From the NCBI GenBank assembly GCA_021812165.1, contig JAKAOO010000007.1:1-34316 (forward strand): 34,316 nucleotides of DNA, given 5' to 3'. This document shows positions 788 through 9,393 of the stretch, piece by piece. The position numbers and the translations under genes are program-made. Source of the stretch: Pseudomonadota bacterium (GTDB lineage: Bacteria > Pseudomonadota > Alphaproteobacteria > ATCC43930 > CGMCC-115725). Under the pieces are notes generated by a model. The model had not been told where the DNA came from, did not search any database, and saw only the letters and a program-made list of their open reading frames with translations. How positions within the stretch are numbered: the stretch's first letter is position 1; every line of letters starts with the position of its first letter.

Positions 788-2689
788 TCAATTCTGGCGC
801 AGTTTTTGGAGAATCGCGGCGCGGATGACCGCGGGCTTCATCGGCTGGCCCTTCACCTCGCACCAGCAATCGACATCGATGAGATAGCGCGCGCGCAACA
901 GCATCGCGAGCGCACTGTAGCGGCGGTTCGTCTCGTCGATCAGCGCGTCCTCGGGCTGGTCGCACCAGTTGCCTTCGATCGTCATCACCCGGCCGAAGCC
1001 GGCCATGATCTCCTTGAGGCCCGGCGCCATCGGCTGCAGGAAGGTCAAGTGCACCGAGGAGACCCTGTGCCCTTCCGCTTGCAGCCGCTCCACCGCCTCC
1101 TCGATCGCGCCGCGCGTGCTGCCCCAGCCGACCACCAGAAGATCGCCGCTCGCCGGCCCGAACACCGCCGGCGGCGCCAGAGTCTTTTGCAGCGCCGCCA
1201 GTTTGAGGCTGCGCGCATGGATGCTTTTCTGGTTGGTCTCGGCGTCGTAGGCGACGTGGCTCCGATCGTCGTGAGCAAGCCCCGTCACCGTATGCACGCC
1301 GCCCGCCTGGCCGGGCACGATGCGGCGCATGAGCCCCGTGACGGGATCCCAGTCGTAGGGCTTGGCGCCGGCGGGAAGGCTGCCCTCGTCGGCCGGCGGC
1401 GCGAGCCAGGCGGGATTGAACTGCGGCCGCGGGATCGGCTGCTGCGAGGTCGCGAGCGCCGCGTCGGAAAGCACCACCACGACCATGTTGAAGGTCTCGG
1501 CGATCTTGCGCGCGGTGATGACGGAATAGAAACAGTCTTCGATCGTGGAAGCGGCCATCACCACCTTCGGCGCGTCGCCGTGGCTGCCGAACATGGCGGA
1601 GAGGAGGTCGCCCTGCTCCGCCTTGGTCGGGAGCCCGGTGCTCGGACCGCCGCGCTGCACGTTGACGACGACGAGCGGGATCTCGCCCATGACCGCAAGC
1701 CCGATGCCTTCCTGCTTCAGCGAGAAGCCGGGACCGGAGGTGATGGTGACCGTGCATTTGTTGGCATAAGAAGCGCCGAGGGCGAAGGCGCAGGCGCTGA
1801 TCTCGTCCTCCGCCTGGTGCACCACGCCGCCCACCTTTTCGAACACATCGGCGAGATAATGCGAGGCGGAGGTCGCGGGGGTGATCGGGTACATGGCGCA
1901 AATCTCCATGCCCGAAGCGAGAATGCCCAAGGCGAGCGCGGTGTTGCCGTTGACGACGATCTGCGGCTCGTTCGCGCGCAGGGCGGGAATGCGGTACTGG
2001 AAGGCGAGATTCGATTCCGCCCACGCCGCGCCGGCCTCCAAGAGCCGCAGATTGGTCTCGACCACCTTGGCGTCCTTCTTGCCGAAGACGAGCGCCACCT
2101 GATCGGCCGCGAGCTGCATGTCGAGGTCGTAGATGTTGCAGAGGACGCCAAGGGCGAACATGTTCTTGCCGCGCCGCGGGTCGCTGACGATGGCGCGGCA
2201 TTCCTTCTCCATCGGGATCTCGTGCACGGCGTAGCCGGCCGCGACGAGCTCGTCGTACATCTCGCCGTAGGAGGCGGCGATCGCCGTGTTGCGGTCTTCG
2301 CGCCACATGTTTTCCATGAGGATCGTCGCGCCCGGTTTCAATGCGCCCTCGCGCACGCGCCCCAAAAGCACCTGCTCGTTGAAGGCAATGATGAGATCGG
2401 TCTCGTTGCCGCCATTGGTGATGCGGCGCGAGCCGAAGCGGATGCGGTTGCCGGAGGCGCCGGCAACGCTCCTCGCGGGCGGGCGGATTTCGGCCGGAAT
2501 GATCTCGACCGTCCACACGCCGTAACCCATGCGCGCGGCGATGGCGCCGAGGCACTGGCCGCAACGCTGCGCTCCCTCGCCGGAATCGCTGATCACTTCG
2601 ACGATGTGTTCGGAGGGCGTCGAGAGCGTCCTCGCGCGGGCGCCCTTGGGCGAGATGAGGGGTCGTTCAAGGAGAGTGGCTTCGTTCAT
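788..2689 (-). CDS. korA: 2-oxoacid:ferredoxin oxidoreductase, fused gamma-alpha subunit
   Basis: This 633-aa protein is the partner of the downstream beta subunit. The N-terminal part (about residues 25-200) is the gamma domain. The alpha (pyrimidine-binding) domain follows, with YPITPATSASHYLADVFE from residue 267, AEDEISA near 293 and ITSGPG near 318. The fused gamma-alpha form is a usual length for two-subunit enzymes. The start has only a weak Shine-Dalgarno (AGG two nt upstream), and the gene sits behind a palindromic repeat, so its expression may depend on read-through from nfnB. Substrate choice (2-oxoglutarate versus pyruvate) is an inference. Confidence 0.93.
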   Translation of the reverse strand: MNEATLLERPLISPKGARARTLSTPSEHIVEVISDSGEGAQRCGQCLGAIAARMGYGVWTVEIIPAEIRPPARSVAGASGNRIRFGSRRITNGGNETDLIIAFNEQVLLGRVREGALKPGATILMENMWREDRNTAIAASYGEMYDELVAAGYAVHEIPMEKECRAIVSDPRRGKNMFALGVLCNIYDLDMQLAADQVALVFGKKDAKVVETNLRLLEAGAAWAESNLAFQYRIPALRANEPQIVVNGNTALALGILASGMEICAMYPITPATSASHYLADVFEKVGGVVHQAEDEISACAFALGASYANKCTVTITSGPGFSLKQEGIGLAVMGEIPLVVVNVQRGGPSTGLPTKAEQGDLLSAMFGSHGDAPKVVMAASTIEDCFYSVITARKIAETFNMVVVVLSDAALATSQQPIPRPQFNPAWLAPPADEGSLPAGAKPYDWDPVTGLMRRIVPGQAGGVHTVTGLAHDDRSHVAYDAETNQKSIHARSLKLAALQKTLAPPAVFGPASGDLLVVGWGSTRGAIEEAVERLQAEGHRVSSVHLTFLQPMAPGLKEIMAGFGRVMTIEGNWCDQPEDALIDETNRRYSALAMLLRARYLIDVDCWCEVKGQPMKPAVIRAAILQKLRQN

Positions 2690-2973: not shown

Positions 2974-4464
2974 CTAGAAGCTGCGGATCCGGGCGAAGTT
3001 GCGTTCTCCGGCGGGGATGCCGAAGTGGCTCGCGGCGATGGCGCCGATCGGCTCCGGCTCCGAAATGCCGAGATACGCCTTCATGGCGCGCGCCGCCTTG
3101 CGGCCGGCGCCCATCGCCTCGATCACGGTCGCCGCGCCGGTGACGATGTCGCCGCCGGCGAAGACGCCGGCCATCGACGTCGCGAGCTCCTCGTCGGCCT
3201 CGATGTAGCCGCGCTTATTGAGCCCGATCTTCGAGGTCTGGCCGATGATCGGGTTGGCGTTGGTGCCGATGGCAAAGACCACCTGGTCGCATTCCACCTC
3301 GTGCTCGCTGCCGGCGACGGGCACGGGCCGCGCGCGGCCGGAGGCGTCGGGCTCGCCGAGCTCCATCGCGATGCACCGCAGCGCGCGCACATTGCCGCCC
3401 TCGTCGCCCAGAATTTCGGTGGGCGCCGTCAGCCATTTGAACACGATGCCTTCCTCTTCGGCGTGATGGACCTCCTCGGCGCGCGCCGGGCATTCGGCCC
3501 GGCTGCGGCGATAGACGCAGGTGACGCGCTGGGCGCCGAGACGCAGCGCGACGCGCATCGCGTCCATGGCGGTGTTGCCGGCGCCGACGACGGCGACATT
3601 CTTGCCGAGCGGGATCGGCGTGTCGTAACGGGGAAAGTCGCGCGCCCGCATCAGGTTGCAGCGGGTCAACAGCTCGTTCGCCGACAAGACGCCGTTCAAT
3701 GATTCGCCGGGTATGCCGAGCATCGCCGGAGTGCCGGCGCCGGTGCCGATGAAGACGGCGTCGAAGCCCAGATCGTCGAGCATCTCTTCGATCGTGAAGA
3801 GCCGCCCGATGAGGGTGTTGCACCGGAACGTGACGCCGAGCCGCCGCAGATTCGCGATCTCGGCGTCGACGACCGCGTTCGGCAGGCGGAAGTCGGGGAT
3901 GCCGTAGCGCAACACGCCGCCCGGCTCGTGAAACGCCTCGAACACGGTCACCTCGCAGCCGGCCTTCGCCATGTCGGCGGCGCAGGCCATGCCCGCGGGA
4001 CCGGAACCGATGATGCCGACCCGCCGCCCGCAGGGCTCGATATGCGGCAGGTTCACCCAGCCCTCGACGATGGCGCGGTCGCCGACAAAGCGTTCGAGAC
4101 GGCCGATCGCCACGGGTTCGAGCGTCTCGCCGACGACGCAGACCCCTTCGCACTGAGTCTCCTGCGGGCAGACGCGGCCGCAGACGGCGGGGAGGAGATT
4201 GGTGCGGCCGATCACCTCCCAGGCGCCGCGGAAGTCCTTCATGCCGATGCGCTCGATGAACCCGGGGATGTCGATGCCGACGGGGCAGCCTTCGATGCAG
4301 ATGGGATCGGGGCAAAAGAGGCAGCGCTCGCTTTCGACGAGCGCCGCCTTTTCGTCATAACCGAGACTGACCTCGCCGAAATTGGCGGCGCGCTCGCCGG
4401 CCTTCTGTTCGGAAACCGAAGTGCGGCTTTGCGGGATGGTGCGGATCGTTCGTTTCTTCGCCAT
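2974..4464 (-). CDS. nfnB: GltD-family NAD(P)/FAD oxidoreductase; NfnB / SudA-like large subunit
   Basis: This 496-aa iron-sulfur flavoprotein corresponds to the large subunit of NADH-dependent reduced ferredoxin:NADP+ oxidoreductase or sulfide dehydrogenase. Two N-terminal cysteine groups bind [4Fe-4S]: C48, C51, C56, C60 and C95, C99, C105, C109. A FAD-binding GSGPAG follows near 153, and an NADP-binding VVGAGNTAMDA comes later. The ATG at 4464 fits family N-termini, although it lacks a strong ribosome site. A GTG at 4497, overlapping the nfnA stop as GTGA, is in frame and would add 11 residues. Its neighbour nfnA supplies the other half of the complex, and the korAB genes follow. Whether the pair bifurcates electrons, or acts as a sulfide dehydrogenase or glutamate-synthase-like enzyme, cannot be told from sequence alone. 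Confidence 0.88.
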   Translation of the reverse strand: MAKKRTIRTIPQSRTSVSEQKAGERAANFGEVSLGYDEKAALVESERCLFCPDPICIEGCPVGIDIPGFIERIGMKDFRGAWEVIGRTNLLPAVCGRVCPQETQCEGVCVVGETLEPVAIGRLERFVGDRAIVEGWVNLPHIEPCGRRVGIIGSGPAGMACAADMAKAGCEVTVFEAFHEPGGVLRYGIPDFRLPNAVVDAEIANLRRLGVTFRCNTLIGRLFTIEEMLDDLGFDAVFIGTGAGTPAMLGIPGESLNGVLSANELLTRCNLMRARDFPRYDTPIPLGKNVAVVGAGNTAMDAMRVALRLGAQRVTCVYRRSRAECPARAEEVHHAEEEGIVFKWLTAPTEILGDEGGNVRALRCIAMELGEPDASGRARPVPVAGSEHEVECDQVVFAIGTNANPIIGQTSKIGLNKRGYIEADEELATSMAGVFAGGDIVTGAATVIEAMGAGRKAARAMKAYLGISEPEPIGAIAASHFGIPAGERNFARIRSF

Positions 4465-4493
4465 GACCAATGACCGGGTTCTTGCGATCGCTC

Positions 4494-5375
4494 TCACGCT
4501 CTGCCGCCGAGGCTCGTCATGCGGCAGTTCTCCGACCAGTGCTCGAGCGCCCTTTTCTCCTCCTCGCTGTAGCGCTTGAGGCGCCGCATCAGATCGTCGA
4601 AGTCGACAAGGTGGCCGTCGAAATCGGGCCCGTCGACGCAGGCGAATTTGACCGCTCCGCCGAGCTTGACGCGGCAGCCGCCGCACATGCCGGTGCCGTC
4701 GACCATGATCGGGTTGAGGGAGACGGTGGTCTTGATGCCGGAGGGACGCGTCACCTCCGCGCAGGCTTTCATCATGATGGGAGGACCGATCGCCACCACC
4801 TCGTCGATGTCGGGATGCGCGGCGAGGGCGGAGCGGATGCCGTCGCTGACAAAGCCTTTCATCCCCGCCGAGCCGTCATCGGTGCAGAGGATCACCTCGT
4901 CGCAGAACGCGCGAAACTTCTCTTCCCAGAAGATTAATGCGCGGTTACGGAAGCCGAGAATGCCGATGACATAGGCGCCCTTTTCCTTGAACGCGCGCAG
5001 CTGGGGAAAGATCGGCGCCACGCCGAGGCCGCCGCCGACGCAGGCAACCTTTTTCACGGTGCCGATATGCGTCGGGGTGCCGAGCGGCCCCACCAGCGCG
5101 TGGAGGCGCGCGCCCGCCCGACAGGTCTGCTGCATCTCGCGGGTGGTCTTGCCGACCGCCTGAACGACGAGGGTGACGGTGCCTCGGGCGCGGTCGAAGT
5201 CCGCAAGGGTGAGCGGAATGCGCTCGCCCTCTTCATGCAGCATGACGATGACGAATTGTCCGGCCCGCGCCGCCTTCGCCATCAGCGGATGGCGGATTTC
5301 GAGGAGATAGGTGACGTCGGAAAAATCCTGCCGGCGGACGATCTCGAAGCCATACTCTTCTAGGACGTCGTTCAT
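4494..5375 (-). CDS. nfnA: FAD/NAD-binding, [2Fe-2S] small subunit; NfnA / SudB-like
   Basis: This 293-aa protein resembles the small subunit of Nfn (ferredoxin-NADP reductase alpha, dihydroorotate dehydrogenase electron-transfer type). The N-terminal half is a ferredoxin-reductase-like FAD domain (GQFVIVMLHEEGERIPLTLAD), followed by an NAD-binding half. Near the C-terminus it has GTGMCGGCRV and KFACVDGPDFDGH, the cysteines that hold the [2Fe-2S] cluster. I use the ATG at 5375 because it has AGGGA about 4 nt upstream and fits the family start; a longer in-frame start at 5417 has no support. It is the first gene of the operon, 30 nt before nfnB, and has an FNR-type box about 90 bp upstream. 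Confidence 0.88.
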   Translation of the reverse strand: MNDVLEEYGFEIVRRQDFSDVTYLLEIRHPLMAKAARAGQFVIVMLHEEGERIPLTLADFDRARGTVTLVVQAVGKTTREMQQTCRAGARLHALVGPLGTPTHIGTVKKVACVGGGLGVAPIFPQLRAFKEKGAYVIGILGFRNRALIFWEEKFRAFCDEVILCTDDGSAGMKGFVSDGIRSALAAHPDIDEVVAIGPPIMMKACAEVTRPSGIKTTVSLNPIMVDGTGMCGGCRVKLGGAVKFACVDGPDFDGHLVDFDDLMRRLKRYSEEEKRALEHWSENCRMTSLGGRA

Positions 5376-5464: not shown

Positions 5465-5478
5465 TTGATATGGATCAA
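5465..5478 (-). promoter_or_regulatory. FNR/FixK-type box upstream of nfnA-nfnB-korAB
   Basis: The sequence TTGATATGGATCAA matches the FNR/FixK consensus TTGAT-N4-ATCAA at all ten defined positions. It is centred about 96 bp upstream of the nfnA ATG, in the 263-bp space (5376-5638) shared with the divergent cupredoxin gene at 5639. It is symmetrical, so it could serve either side, but it lies much closer to nfnA. An oxygen-sensing CRP/FNR-family regulator is the expected reader. Confidence 0.75.
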
Positions 5479-5638: not shown

Positions 5639-6007
5639 ATGCGAACAATTCTCGTTTGCATCAGCAGCCGGAGACATCCCGTGCGGCCTCTCGCCCAATT
5701 CCTCGCTTTTGCGCTTTTCGCCTTTCCGGCCGCGGCGCTCGCCGCCACTCCGCAGTTTTCGATCGCATTGAAGGCGCACCAATTCGTCCCGAAAGAACTG
5801 GAAATCCCCGCCGGCAAAAAGGTCGAACTCAGAGTCCGCAACAACGACCCCGCTCCCGCGGAGTTCGAAAGCACCTCGCTCCATCGCGAAGAAGTCGTTG
5901 TCGGCGGCGGGGAGATCCGCGTCTTTCTGGGGCCTCTCGATCCCGGACGCTACACGTTTTTCGACGACTTCCATCCTTCGACGCGCGGCACGCTCATCGT
6001 CAAGTAG
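5639..6007 (+). CDS. Exported cupredoxin-like protein
   Basis: This 122-aa protein has an N-terminal signal peptide: a basic start, then a hydrophobic stretch ending in AAALAA near residue 35. A single beta-rich cupredoxin-like domain follows. The segment QFVPKELEIPAGKKVELRV and the later SLHREEVVVGGGE and GRYTFFDDFHPST resemble EfeO/FtrB-type cupredoxin domains that sit in iron-uptake systems. The ATG at 5639 has GGAG 4-5 nt upstream. The mature domain shows only a few histidines and no cysteine, so a classical type-1 copper site is not evident. It is followed after 17 nt by a second exported protein. No FTR1 permease or ferredoxin is next to it, so a role in iron or copper handling is only a guess. 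Confidence 0.75.
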   Translation: MRTILVCISSRRHPVRPLAQFLAFALFAFPAAALAATPQFSIALKAHQFVPKELEIPAGKKVELRVRNNDPAPAEFESTSLHREEVVVGGGEIRVFLGPLDPGRYTFFDDFHPSTRGTLIVK

Positions 6008-6024: not shown

Positions 6025-6780
6025 ATGCGTCCGCCGGTCGCCGCGATTCTCTTCGCACTTCTGACGTTCCTCTTCGGTGCCTCGCGCGCGCTTGCCGATT
6101 TCAAGGTGTGGCAGCCCGACGCCGAGTTCGGCGAAACGGCGCTCGAAACGGTCGGCGACTGGGGCTACGATCCCCTCTCCAAAAAAAGCGACGAACGAAG
6201 CTTTACGGAAGAATTCGAACGCGGGGTGACGCCCTTCTGGCGCACGGAACTCGAACTCGAGGAAAACCGCCTTCCGGGACCCGACAATTCGACGAATTTC
6301 GCCCAAGCGACCTCCGAAAACCTGTTTCAGTTTACGCCCCGGGGGGAATATTGGCTCGATGCCGGGTTCTTCTTCGAGTACGGCCAATCGATGCTGCCCG
6401 ACACCCCCAGCGAGACCACCTTCGGTCCCGTACTGCGCAAGGAGATCTTTCACACGATCGACACCGTCAACCTCTTCATCGAGAAGGATCTCGGCAATTA
6501 TGCTGGCGGGAGGCCCAATTTTCTCTACGCCTGGGAGACGCGCATCGACCTCGGAACGAGCATCGAGCCGGGCTTCCAGGCGTATGGCTTCGTCGGCCCT
6601 TTGACCCATTTGACGCCGCTCCGGGAAGAAGACCATCGCCTTGGACCAATGCTCTTCGGCACGATTGTCGCGCTCGGCCCCGGGGCTTTGCGTTGGAACG
6701 GCGGGGTCCTGTTCGGCCTGACCGCGCCCGCGCCGCTCGTCACGCTGCGCTGGCAGGCGGAATACGAGATCCATTTCTGA
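6025..6780 (+). CDS. Exported protein, probably an outer-membrane beta-barrel; function unknown
   Basis: This 251-aa protein starts with a clear signal peptide (hydrophobic AAILFALLTFLFGASRALA, cut near residue 25). The rest alternates short aromatic and polar strands and ends in an aromatic-terminated strand (LRWQAEYEIHF), a common sign of an outer-membrane barrel. I do not recognise the family. It begins 17 nt after the cupredoxin-like gene, so the two form an operon and may work as a periplasm/outer-membrane pair. The start is the ATG right before the hydrophobic segment. Confidence 0.7.
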   Translation: MRPPVAAILFALLTFLFGASRALADFKVWQPDAEFGETALETVGDWGYDPLSKKSDERSFTEEFERGVTPFWRTELELEENRLPGPDNSTNFAQATSENLFQFTPRGEYWLDAGFFFEYGQSMLPDTPSETTFGPVLRKEIFHTIDTVNLFIEKDLGNYAGGRPNFLYAWETRIDLGTSIEPGFQAYGFVGPLTHLTPLREEDHRLGPMLFGTIVALGPGALRWNGGVLFGLTAPAPLVTLRWQAEYEIHF

Positions 6781-6940: not shown

Positions 6941-8392
6941 CTAAGTGGCGGCGCGGCGCGCCGTCAGTTGCTCTTCGATCGCCTCGATCGAGCGCCCCTT
7001 CACCTCAAAGCCGAGAACTGCGTAAGCGAAACCCGCCAAAAGGGACCAGCCGGCCAGATAGATAAAGGCCGGAAGGATGGCGGAGACGGTGGCTTGCGGG
7101 GTGACGATATTCGACACGCCGGCGATGAGTGCAAGGCCCAAGGGGCCGATGATCTTGCCGATGCCGCCAAAGCCATAGGCCGAACCCATGCCGGTGGTGC
7201 GCAGGCGCGCCGGCCACACCTCGGCCGCATAGGGACCGACGATGGCAAAGCCGCCATCGGCGAAGAAATCGGTAAAGATGAGGAGAAGCCAGAAGAGGGA
7301 GGTCGTCCCGATCATCACATCACGAAATACGGCCGCAAGCACGAGGCCGAGGGCCGCACCGATGCCGAGGAGCCCGCCCGAGGCGCGCCGGCCGATGGCG
7401 TCGGACAAAAAGGAAAAGGCAATCCGCCCGAGGAGGCCGCCGGAGGCGATGAAAAACATCAGCCAAAAGGCCTTTGGCGGCGGGATCTTGAGAAGGAGAA
7501 CGAGAAGGCTCGGCGCCCACAGGGTAAGGCCGTAAACGCTCGTCTGAGCGCCAAGATTGCCGAGCCATGAGACGAGAAGGCTGCGCGGGTAGAGAAAGAG
7601 TTCGGAAAAGCGCGCCTTCTCCACTGCCGGAGCCGCGATCGCCGCGAGCGGAATGCTTTCCGGCGCGACCTCGAGCGCCCAGGCCAGCGATCGCCGGGCC
7701 TCCTCGGTGCGGCCTTGACGCGCCAGCCAACGCGGCGATTCCGGGACCCAGACGCGGATGAGGAGAGTGAGAAGGGCCGGGATCATGCCGACGGCGAACA
7801 GGCCTCGCCACCCTATCCAGTGCGTCAGTGTCGCCGCCAGAAGCGAGCCCAGCATGATGCCGAGAGGGATGAAGACCGTGACGAGACCGCCGATCACCCC
7901 GCGTTTGGAAGTCGGCACGAATTCCTGCACCAAAGGCAGATCGACCGAATAGAGCCCGCCGACGCCGAACCCTGCAATAAAGCGAAAGACTACAAGAAAC
8001 TGCCAGTTGTGGTGCGGTGTCAGGGCGAGGATGCCGGTGGCGATGGAGAAGTTGAGCACCGTCGCGATGAAAACGCTTCTGCGGCCGATGCGGTCGGCAA
8101 TATGGCCCCAGACAAAGGCGCCAAAGATGGCGCCGACGCCCGAAGAGAGAAAGACCATCGCCGCCTGCCCATAAGTCAGTTTCCACGGGCCGACGATGAC
8201 GATAAAGACAAAGGCGATGACGAAGTAGTCGAAGAATTCCATCATATCGCCGAGGATCGCGGCGAGGATGATCCGGTACTGGTTGCCTTTGAGCCGGGTT
8301 TGGCGATCGAGGATCGCCATCATCGAATCCGCCGCCGCGGCTGCGGGCGCGGCCCGCGCCGATCCGGAACTCCCGCTGCCTCGATCTGTCAT
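6941..8392 (-). CDS. MFS transporter, aromatic acid/sugar-porter-like
   Basis: This 483-aa inner-membrane transporter of the major facilitator superfamily has about 12 hydrophobic segments. The loop after helix 2 carries GHIADRIGRRSVF, the conserved D-R-x-G-R-R motif, and a VPESPRWLARQGRTEEA stretch follows helix 6, as in sugar and aromatic-acid porters. The N-terminus has a low-complexity Ala/Ser tail before the first helix. The start ATG at 8392 has GGGAGA about 7 nt upstream and lies 17 nt after the cyclase stop, so the two are one operon. The likely substrate is the compound handled by the cyclase-family enzyme, which is unknown. Confidence 0.9.
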   Translation of the reverse strand: MTDRGSGSSGSARAAPAAAAADSMMAILDRQTRLKGNQYRIILAAILGDMMEFFDYFVIAFVFIVIVGPWKLTYGQAAMVFLSSGVGAIFGAFVWGHIADRIGRRSVFIATVLNFSIATGILALTPHHNWQFLVVFRFIAGFGVGGLYSVDLPLVQEFVPTSKRGVIGGLVTVFIPLGIMLGSLLAATLTHWIGWRGLFAVGMIPALLTLLIRVWVPESPRWLARQGRTEEARRSLAWALEVAPESIPLAAIAAPAVEKARFSELFLYPRSLLVSWLGNLGAQTSVYGLTLWAPSLLVLLLKIPPPKAFWLMFFIASGGLLGRIAFSFLSDAIGRRASGGLLGIGAALGLVLAAVFRDVMIGTTSLFWLLLIFTDFFADGGFAIVGPYAAEVWPARLRTTGMGSAYGFGGIGKIIGPLGLALIAGVSNIVTPQATVSAILPAFIYLAGWSLLAGFAYAVLGFEVKGRSIEAIEEQLTARRAAT

Positions 8393-8409: not shown

Positions 8410-9393
8410 CTATTTGATTGCCAGAGGATTGACGGGCGACCCGACCGCCCCCGTGATCGGCAACGCCGGTGCGACGAACAGGAACTCGTAGCGCCGGTCC
8501 TCGGCGCAGTCGTTTGAAAGCTCCGCCAGATGGAAGATCTCGCCCACCGAAAGGCCCATCATCGGGATCGCGATCCAGTGCCAGGGCTGGGCGGCGTCGA
8601 TCGTCTGGTTGGGTCGGACCTCGACGCCCCAGGTGTCGGTGGCGATGGCGGCGACCTCTTTCTCACGAAGCCAATCAAGCGTTTCGAAGGCGAGGCCCGG
8701 CGCATCCCCGCCGGCATAACCGTCCCAATTGCCGGCGGCGAGTTTCGCCTCGATCTGGCCGGTGCGCACGAGAAGGAAATCGCCGCGCTTGACGCTTACC
8801 CCGAAATGCCGCTCGGCCCGATCGAGGAGCTCGTTGGTGATGCCGAAGGCGTCGGGAAGGGTCTCCATCCCCAGCATCCGGGCGATGTCGAGCAGGACGC
8901 CGCGGCCGACCATTTTCGCCTTCGTCTGCTCGATCCCGCATTTCTGGGCGCCGAAACTCGAGACGGTGCGGCAGTCGCGCCCGTTCCACATGTTCTCGCC
9001 GAAAAAGATGTGGCCGAGACCGTCCCATTGCGTGCCCGCTTGCAGCGGCATGATGACGATGTCGTCGGCGCCGCGGATCTTGCGGTAATCGAGGGCGCCC
9101 GAATAGGCGTCGCTGCCGTCGCGCAGCATGACGTGGATCGGGTTGAAGCGCCCGATCGCGCCATAGCCGGTCTGCGCGCCCTGCGGTCCCTTGTCGTCGA
9201 AGGGAAGGGCGAGCGAGAAGACCCGGCCTTTTCTGACGAGCCGGGCGGCGGCGGCGATGTCTTCGGCGCTCGTGTAATTGAGCGTCCCGATCTCGTCATC
9301 GGCGCCCCATTTGCCCCAATTCTTGAGCCGCTCGGCGGCGGCGCGAAGGTCCTCCAGGCTGAGCCTCGGAAGTGCTGGCGCGTCCTCCGGCAT
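8410..9393 (-). CDS. Cyclase-family (kynurenine formamidase-like) metal-dependent hydrolase
   Basis: This 327-aa protein belongs to the 'putative cyclase' superfamily of metal-dependent hydrolases that includes kynurenine formamidase. The metal-site region reads MPLQAGTQWDGLGHIFF, where the long-form members have QWDGLGH in place of the canonical HxGTHxDxPxH. FLLVRTGQ and AIATDTWGVE further on fit the fold. Length matches the long form (about 320 aa). It is followed by an MFS transporter in the same operon, which suggests uptake plus hydrolysis of one small organic compound. An FNR-like box lies about 85 bp upstream. The substrate cannot be named. Confidence 0.85.
   Translation of the reverse strand: MPEDAPALPRLSLEDLRAAAERLKNWGKWGADDEIGTLNYTSAEDIAAAARLVRKGRVFSLALPFDDKGPQGAQTGYGAIGRFNPIHVMLRDGSDAYSGALDYRKIRGADDIVIMPLQAGTQWDGLGHIFFGENMWNGRDCRTVSSFGAQKCGIEQTKAKMVGRGVLLDIARMLGMETLPDAFGITNELLDRAERHFGVSVKRGDFLLVRTGQIEAKLAAGNWDGYAGGDAPGLAFETLDWLREKEVAAIATDTWGVEVRPNQTIDAAQPWHWIAIPMMGLSVGEIFHLAELSNDCAEDRRYEFLFVAPALPITGAVGSPVNPLAIK

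Follow-up and report, generated by a model that had tools for sequence, protein, structure and literature searches.

The window, a stretch of 34,316 nucleotides on contig C24 of a fragmented draft genome (3.66 Mb, 96% completeness), begins inside an operon that is read on the reverse strand and encodes the two subunits of an Nfn enzyme together with the subunits of a 2-oxoacid:ferredoxin oxidoreductase (Table 1). The 14-mer TTGATATGGATCAA, the sole perfect match to TTGATN4ATCAA in the window, is located in the divergent intergenic region between nfnA and a cupredoxin-like gene on the opposite strand. The cupredoxin-like gene is paired with one at 6025-6780 for an exported-looking protein of 251 aa, which belongs to no Pfam family. 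The box is present exactly as the earlier note had placed it, and the genes after it, of the NfnA, NfnB, KorA and KorB families, bear out the Nfn-Kor operon named there.

Table 1. Genes and predicted regulatory sites in the first part of the window.
Feature	Coordinates	Strand	Remarks
korB, TPP-binding beta subunit, cut by the contig end	1..773	-	3' end on contig C76
korA, fused gamma-alpha subunit of 2-oxoacid:ferredoxin oxidoreductase	788..2689	-	OAFO family
nfnB, Nfn large subunit (two [4Fe-4S] motifs, FAD, NADP(H))	2974..4686	-	NfnB/GltD-like ORF
nfnA, Nfn small subunit (FAD, NAD(H), [2Fe-2S]), first operon gene	4494..5375	-	NfnA/sulfide-dehydrogenase-like
FixK/FNR-type box TTGATATGGATCAA	5465-5478	.	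Centre 96 bp 5' of the nfnA ATG
Cupredoxin-like gene, divergent	5681..6007	+	Box centre ~210 bp 5' of the likely start
MFS transporter	6941-8392	-	Closest to the aromatic acid:H+ symporter family, below its cut-off
PF04199 cyclase	8410-9393	-	First of the gene pair after the second box
Second, near-perfect box CTGATTTAGATCAA	9478..9491	.	~92 bp 5' of the cyclase start at 9393; position only

The start of nfnA, the ATG at 5375, was inferred from the N-terminus of homologous proteins. The nfnB reading frame is open up to 4686, but similarity to homologous proteins sets in only near 4430, which places the actual start of this gene downstream of 4686. NfnA and NfnB align over their full lengths with the Nfn proteins of Pyrococcus furiosus and Thermotoga maritima, with the cluster motifs kept, and the two separate subunits carrying one [2Fe-2S] and two [4Fe-4S] motifs correspond to Nfn pattern A. 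KorA scores above the cut-off of TIGR03710, and its best solved match is the 2-oxoglutarate:ferredoxin oxidoreductase of Magnetococcus marinus (6n2n), a likeness at the family level that does not fix the substrate. The truncated KorB falls below the TIGR02177 cut-off and above that of Pfam TPP_enzyme_C. The continuation of korB was found on contig C76, which overlaps the start of the window contig in reverse complement by 126 identical bp, the basis for joining the two contigs.

On C76 (L138) the end of korB is followed by a fifth gene (391-2619) encoding a protein of 742 aa. Among the 59 loci with room for it, 57 have a homologue of this gene 3' of korB in the same orientation. A Pfam search of the product returned nothing beyond a sub-threshold C-terminal ferredoxin-I-like domain. 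For one relative, the modelled N-terminal part (mean pLDDT 72) has pyruvate:ferredoxin oxidoreductases (PFOR) as its best structural matches, which cover a partial chain with E about 2e-4 and low TM-scores. The product is read here as a putative PFOR-like protein that has diverged and carries a ferredoxin tail. In Rhodoplanes serenus (L065, 6001-10287), nfnA, nfnB and the fifth gene are found without korAB, while the second copy in the same strain (L078) is complete.

The genome contains 24 copies of the exact palindromic motif and a single occurrence of the reversed-pattern control, and the majority of these sites are intergenic and shortly 5' of a start codon. Its companions include hemN and one FixK-like gene, and further exact boxes are located near genes that encode universal stress, CBS-domain and molybdopterin oxidoreductase proteins. 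The same motif recurs in front of nfnA in other organisms. Gathering of 80 loci with NfnA relatives gave 73 non-redundant upstream regions, and a site with at most two mismatches is present within 250 bp upstream in 58 of these, compared with a mean of 5.4 and a maximum of 11 for shuffled upstream regions and 7.1 for random stretches from the same loci. Ten exact sites were found where 0.025 were expected, and a control word gave 5 of 78. When six upstream regions from Acetobacteraceae and other Alphaproteobacteria (two of the six are identical) were aligned with the window, the box stood out as the single invariant island. The order nfnA-nfnB-korA-korB is retained in most loci. In none of the loci examined was the divergent cupredoxin pair of the window found beside nfnA. 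The invariance of the box in close relatives and the lack of conservation of its cupredoxin neighbour therefore assign the box to the Nfn-Kor operon, of which the palindrome is a genuine, evolutionarily conserved predicted FixK/FNR-type site. Conservation at nfnA homologues was the check that the earlier note had proposed for its claim of a box before this operon, and the claim is supported by this conservation as well as by the motif enrichment and the kept gene order.

The pattern is not uniform across lineages. Many betaproteobacterial loci carry related, partly drifted palindromes (TTGCGCTARATCAA and TTGACN4GTCAA), and the family member that binds the box may therefore differ between lineages. 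A good box in the usual place upstream of nfnA is absent from the marine gammaproteobacterial loci L038, L053, L058, L069 and L075, and such box-less loci with rearranged korAB act as an internal control. In these five and in L059, another marine gammaproteobacterial locus without the usual upstream box, nfnA is located apart from the rearranged korAB, and nfnB is inverted in four of them.

Three CRP/FNR-type proteins above the HTH cut-off are encoded in the genome, and the N-terminal cysteine cluster of FNR is absent from all three. For two of them, encoded on contigs C285 and C93, the nearest solved chain is FixK2 (4i2o, E 3e-33 and 2.4e-23), with both scoring below the NCBIfam FixK equivalog cut-off. 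The FixK-like gene on C93 is itself preceded by an exact box. In Alphaproteobacteria, FixK without the cluster and FnrN and AadR with the cluster share the motif TTGANCNNGATCAANG, whose targets include hemN and fixK (PMC4999443). With no cysteine-cluster protein and two FixK-like proteins at hand, "FixK box" is the better label, so that of the "FNR/FixK" assignment made earlier the FixK part stands and the FNR part falls; a true FNR was rejected as the regulator. Low-oxygen induction is the natural inference from the box, predicted low-oxygen control of the operon is well supported on comparative grounds, and regulation by a FixK/FNR-type protein appears highly probable from the sequence evidence.

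Some of the other exact boxes lie near genes of anaerobic aromatic degradation. Contig C307 (L122) carries the genes for benzoyl-CoA reductase A, B and C, cyclohexadienecarbonyl-CoA hydratase and 6-oxocyclohexenecarbonyl-CoA hydrolase/hydratase, all of which pass equivalog cut-offs except the contig-truncated BcrA. These genes (bcrA/B/C, dch and oah) are divergent from a second korA-korB pair, and the region that separates them contains an exact box. The second korB is followed by a small [2Fe-2S]-type ORF that resembles by eye the gamma subunit of 4-hydroxybenzoyl-CoA reductase. On C76, where the operon continues, a ligase gene with an exact box is closest to 3-hydroxybenzoate-CoA ligase HbdA, its product being below the HbdA model cut-off and above that of the benzoate-CoA ligase family. 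BcrC is present in 15 of the 50 genomes with the Nfn-Kor operon, compared with 14 of 384 others of the window's class (p 2.5e-8), and in 6 of 22 records in an alphaproteobacterial-only subset assigned by name (p 3e-4), both p-values being approximate because the samples are unmatched by lineage. Within the organism's own family the co-occurrence of NfnA and BcrC (2/3 against 4/36, p 0.056) is suggestive only.

The mechanism proposed from these observations is as follows. At low oxygen, a FixK-type protein of the CRP/FNR family would bind the box and activate an operon composed of nfnA-nfnB-korA-korB and the fifth gene, which is located on C76. The Kor part would oxidize a 2-oxoacid, most likely 2-oxoglutarate to succinyl-CoA, and its low-potential electrons would presumably flow to ferredoxin, while the Nfn part would link NAD(P)H with the ferredoxin pool. 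The most likely user of the reduced ferredoxin in this organism would be the class I ATP-dependent benzoyl-CoA reductase. In addition, the Kor reaction may take over the step of the TCA cycle for which 2-oxoglutarate dehydrogenase is normally responsible. Benzoyl-CoA reductase as the main electron acceptor is put forward tentatively, at somewhat less than an even chance. The bcr cluster already has its own korAB, and 35 of the 50 operon genomes are without a BcrC of the kind on C307, which makes ring reduction one use of the operon and not its general role; benzoyl-CoA reductase as the general partner was rejected on this ground. A further point against the proposal is that strains of Rhodopseudomonas palustris carry either the Nfn-like AadN or KorAB, not both (PMC9973337). 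At the level of the promoter and the assembly, the -10 element at class II spacing from the box is weak (TAGTGG), and the draft is fragmented, with the operon running across the 126-bp overlap between contigs.

The most serious competing explanation keeps the same low-oxygen site and regards the module as a 2-oxoglutarate:ferredoxin/NAD(P)+ oxidoreductase of general function, serving the TCA cycle and low-oxygen redox balance, with the korAB of the bcr cluster as the dedicated donor to benzoyl-CoA reductase. The lack of such a BcrC in 35 of the 50 operon genomes and the second korAB adjoining bcr both favor it, as does a search for the C-terminal domain of 2-oxoglutarate dehydrogenase E1, which detected this domain in the control genomes of E. 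coli and Caulobacter but not here. Given the 96% completeness, the result suggests that the Kor enzymes may carry the TCA step of 2-oxoglutarate dehydrogenase, even though the missing E1 could be a draft gap. However, the enrichment of BcrC with the operon and the hydroxybenzoate-CoA ligase close by on C76 are less easily accommodated, and this general function is considered a real but somewhat doubtful possibility. The genome encodes six POR_N-type oxidoreductases, including a NifJ-type PFOR, with three more alpha subunits besides NifJ and the two kor operons. The "mainly aerobic" lineage assumed in the earlier note is doubtful in view of the benzoyl-CoA reductase, the NifJ-type PFOR, the four ferredoxin-type alpha subunits in addition to that of the window, and the lack of a detected 2-oxoglutarate dehydrogenase E1.

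The signal could also be something other than oxygen itself, if the site were used by another CRP/FNR-family protein of the NO- or redox-responsive Dnr/NnrR type. This would fit the drift of the betaproteobacterial palindromes and the AAVSR sequence that replaces the E-x-x-S/C-R recognition motif in one of the two FixK-like proteins, but the exact TTGATN4ATCAA form in this genome and its close relatives, FixK2 as the best regulator match and hemN among the box sites make it unlikely. A role of the box for the divergent cupredoxin pair, alone or additionally, is improbable: the box does lie between both genes and a palindrome has no direction, but it tracks nfnA across lineages and is closer to nfnA than to the likely cupredoxin start. 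The pair was rejected as the main target since it is not beside nfnA in relatives.

Nitrogen fixation, which the earlier note had considered a use of the operon, does not fit this organism. No nifH was found in the genome, the best match being a P-loop of 37 residues, and 9 of the 50 operon genomes pass the nifH cut-off. These nine genomes and the ability of a mutated AadN to feed nitrogenase in R. palustris are the points in favor of a supply of reduced ferredoxin to nitrogenase, but wild-type AadN does not support nitrogenase (PMC9973337), and this genome contradicts the idea unless the 4% of it that is missing contains nif genes. It is therefore rejected as highly implausible, and electrons for anaerobic aromatic degradation, possibly with a TCA role, are the better reading. 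A chance palindrome can be dismissed as next to impossible, for although the window alone is marginal, with two boxes of at most one mismatch against 0.39 expected and 8 of 100 shuffles reaching two, the genome and orthologue statistics are against it.

The box as such is unremarkable. Of greater interest is the conserved operon of five genes, the fifth of which is directly testable. A speculative idea is that the operon may encode an unrecognized five-subunit complex, in which NfnA, NfnB, KorA, KorB and a diverged PFOR-like protein with a built-in single-cluster ferredoxin would directly couple 2-oxoacid oxidation to flavin-based electron bifurcation or confurcation, with a low-oxygen switch across facultative Proteobacteria and with aromatic-ring reduction as the process driven in some of them.

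Several known systems resemble parts of this operon. The products of its first two genes resemble NfnAB (NfnI) of P. furiosus and T. maritima, similar in both full-length subunits and in the kept cluster motifs, whereas the genes in this organism are part of a fixed operon with korAB and the PFOR-like/ferredoxin gene. KorABC of Azoarcus evansii, described by Ebenau-Jehle and coworkers in 2003, is reportedly a 2-oxoglutarate:NADP+ oxidoreductase, and, as far as the title of that work tells, it likewise combines Kor subunits with an NADP-linked activity. KorAB of Thauera aromatica is cited in PMC9973337 as oxidizing 2-oxoglutarate to provide the electrons for ring reduction, and, within what such secondary mention conveys, the likeness of both Kor systems to the present one is this use of 2-oxoglutarate as the electron source. 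The FixK/FnrN regulon of Alphaproteobacteria is similar in the palindrome, its intergenic position and the companions hemN and a fixK-like gene (PMC4999443), while aromatic-degradation and ferredoxin-oxidoreductase genes are prominent here. No kor or nfn targets are listed by those names in the survey of that regulon (PMC4999443). In facultative Proteobacteria the FixK/FNR oxygen regulon would gain a conserved 2-oxoacid/ferredoxin operon, one that is also linked to the anaerobic degradation of aromatics, for which it is only partly understood where benzoyl-CoA reductase obtains its low-potential electrons. A further parallel is AadN of R. palustris, an Nfn homologue linked to the same process, which is required for growth on benzoate and has been proposed as the electron source to benzoyl-CoA reductase (PMC9973337). 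AadN has fused subunits, no korAB partner and a place in an anaerobic aromatic gene cluster; here the aromatic genes are on C76 and C307, and the Nfn subunits are encoded by separate genes in one operon with korAB and the fifth gene.
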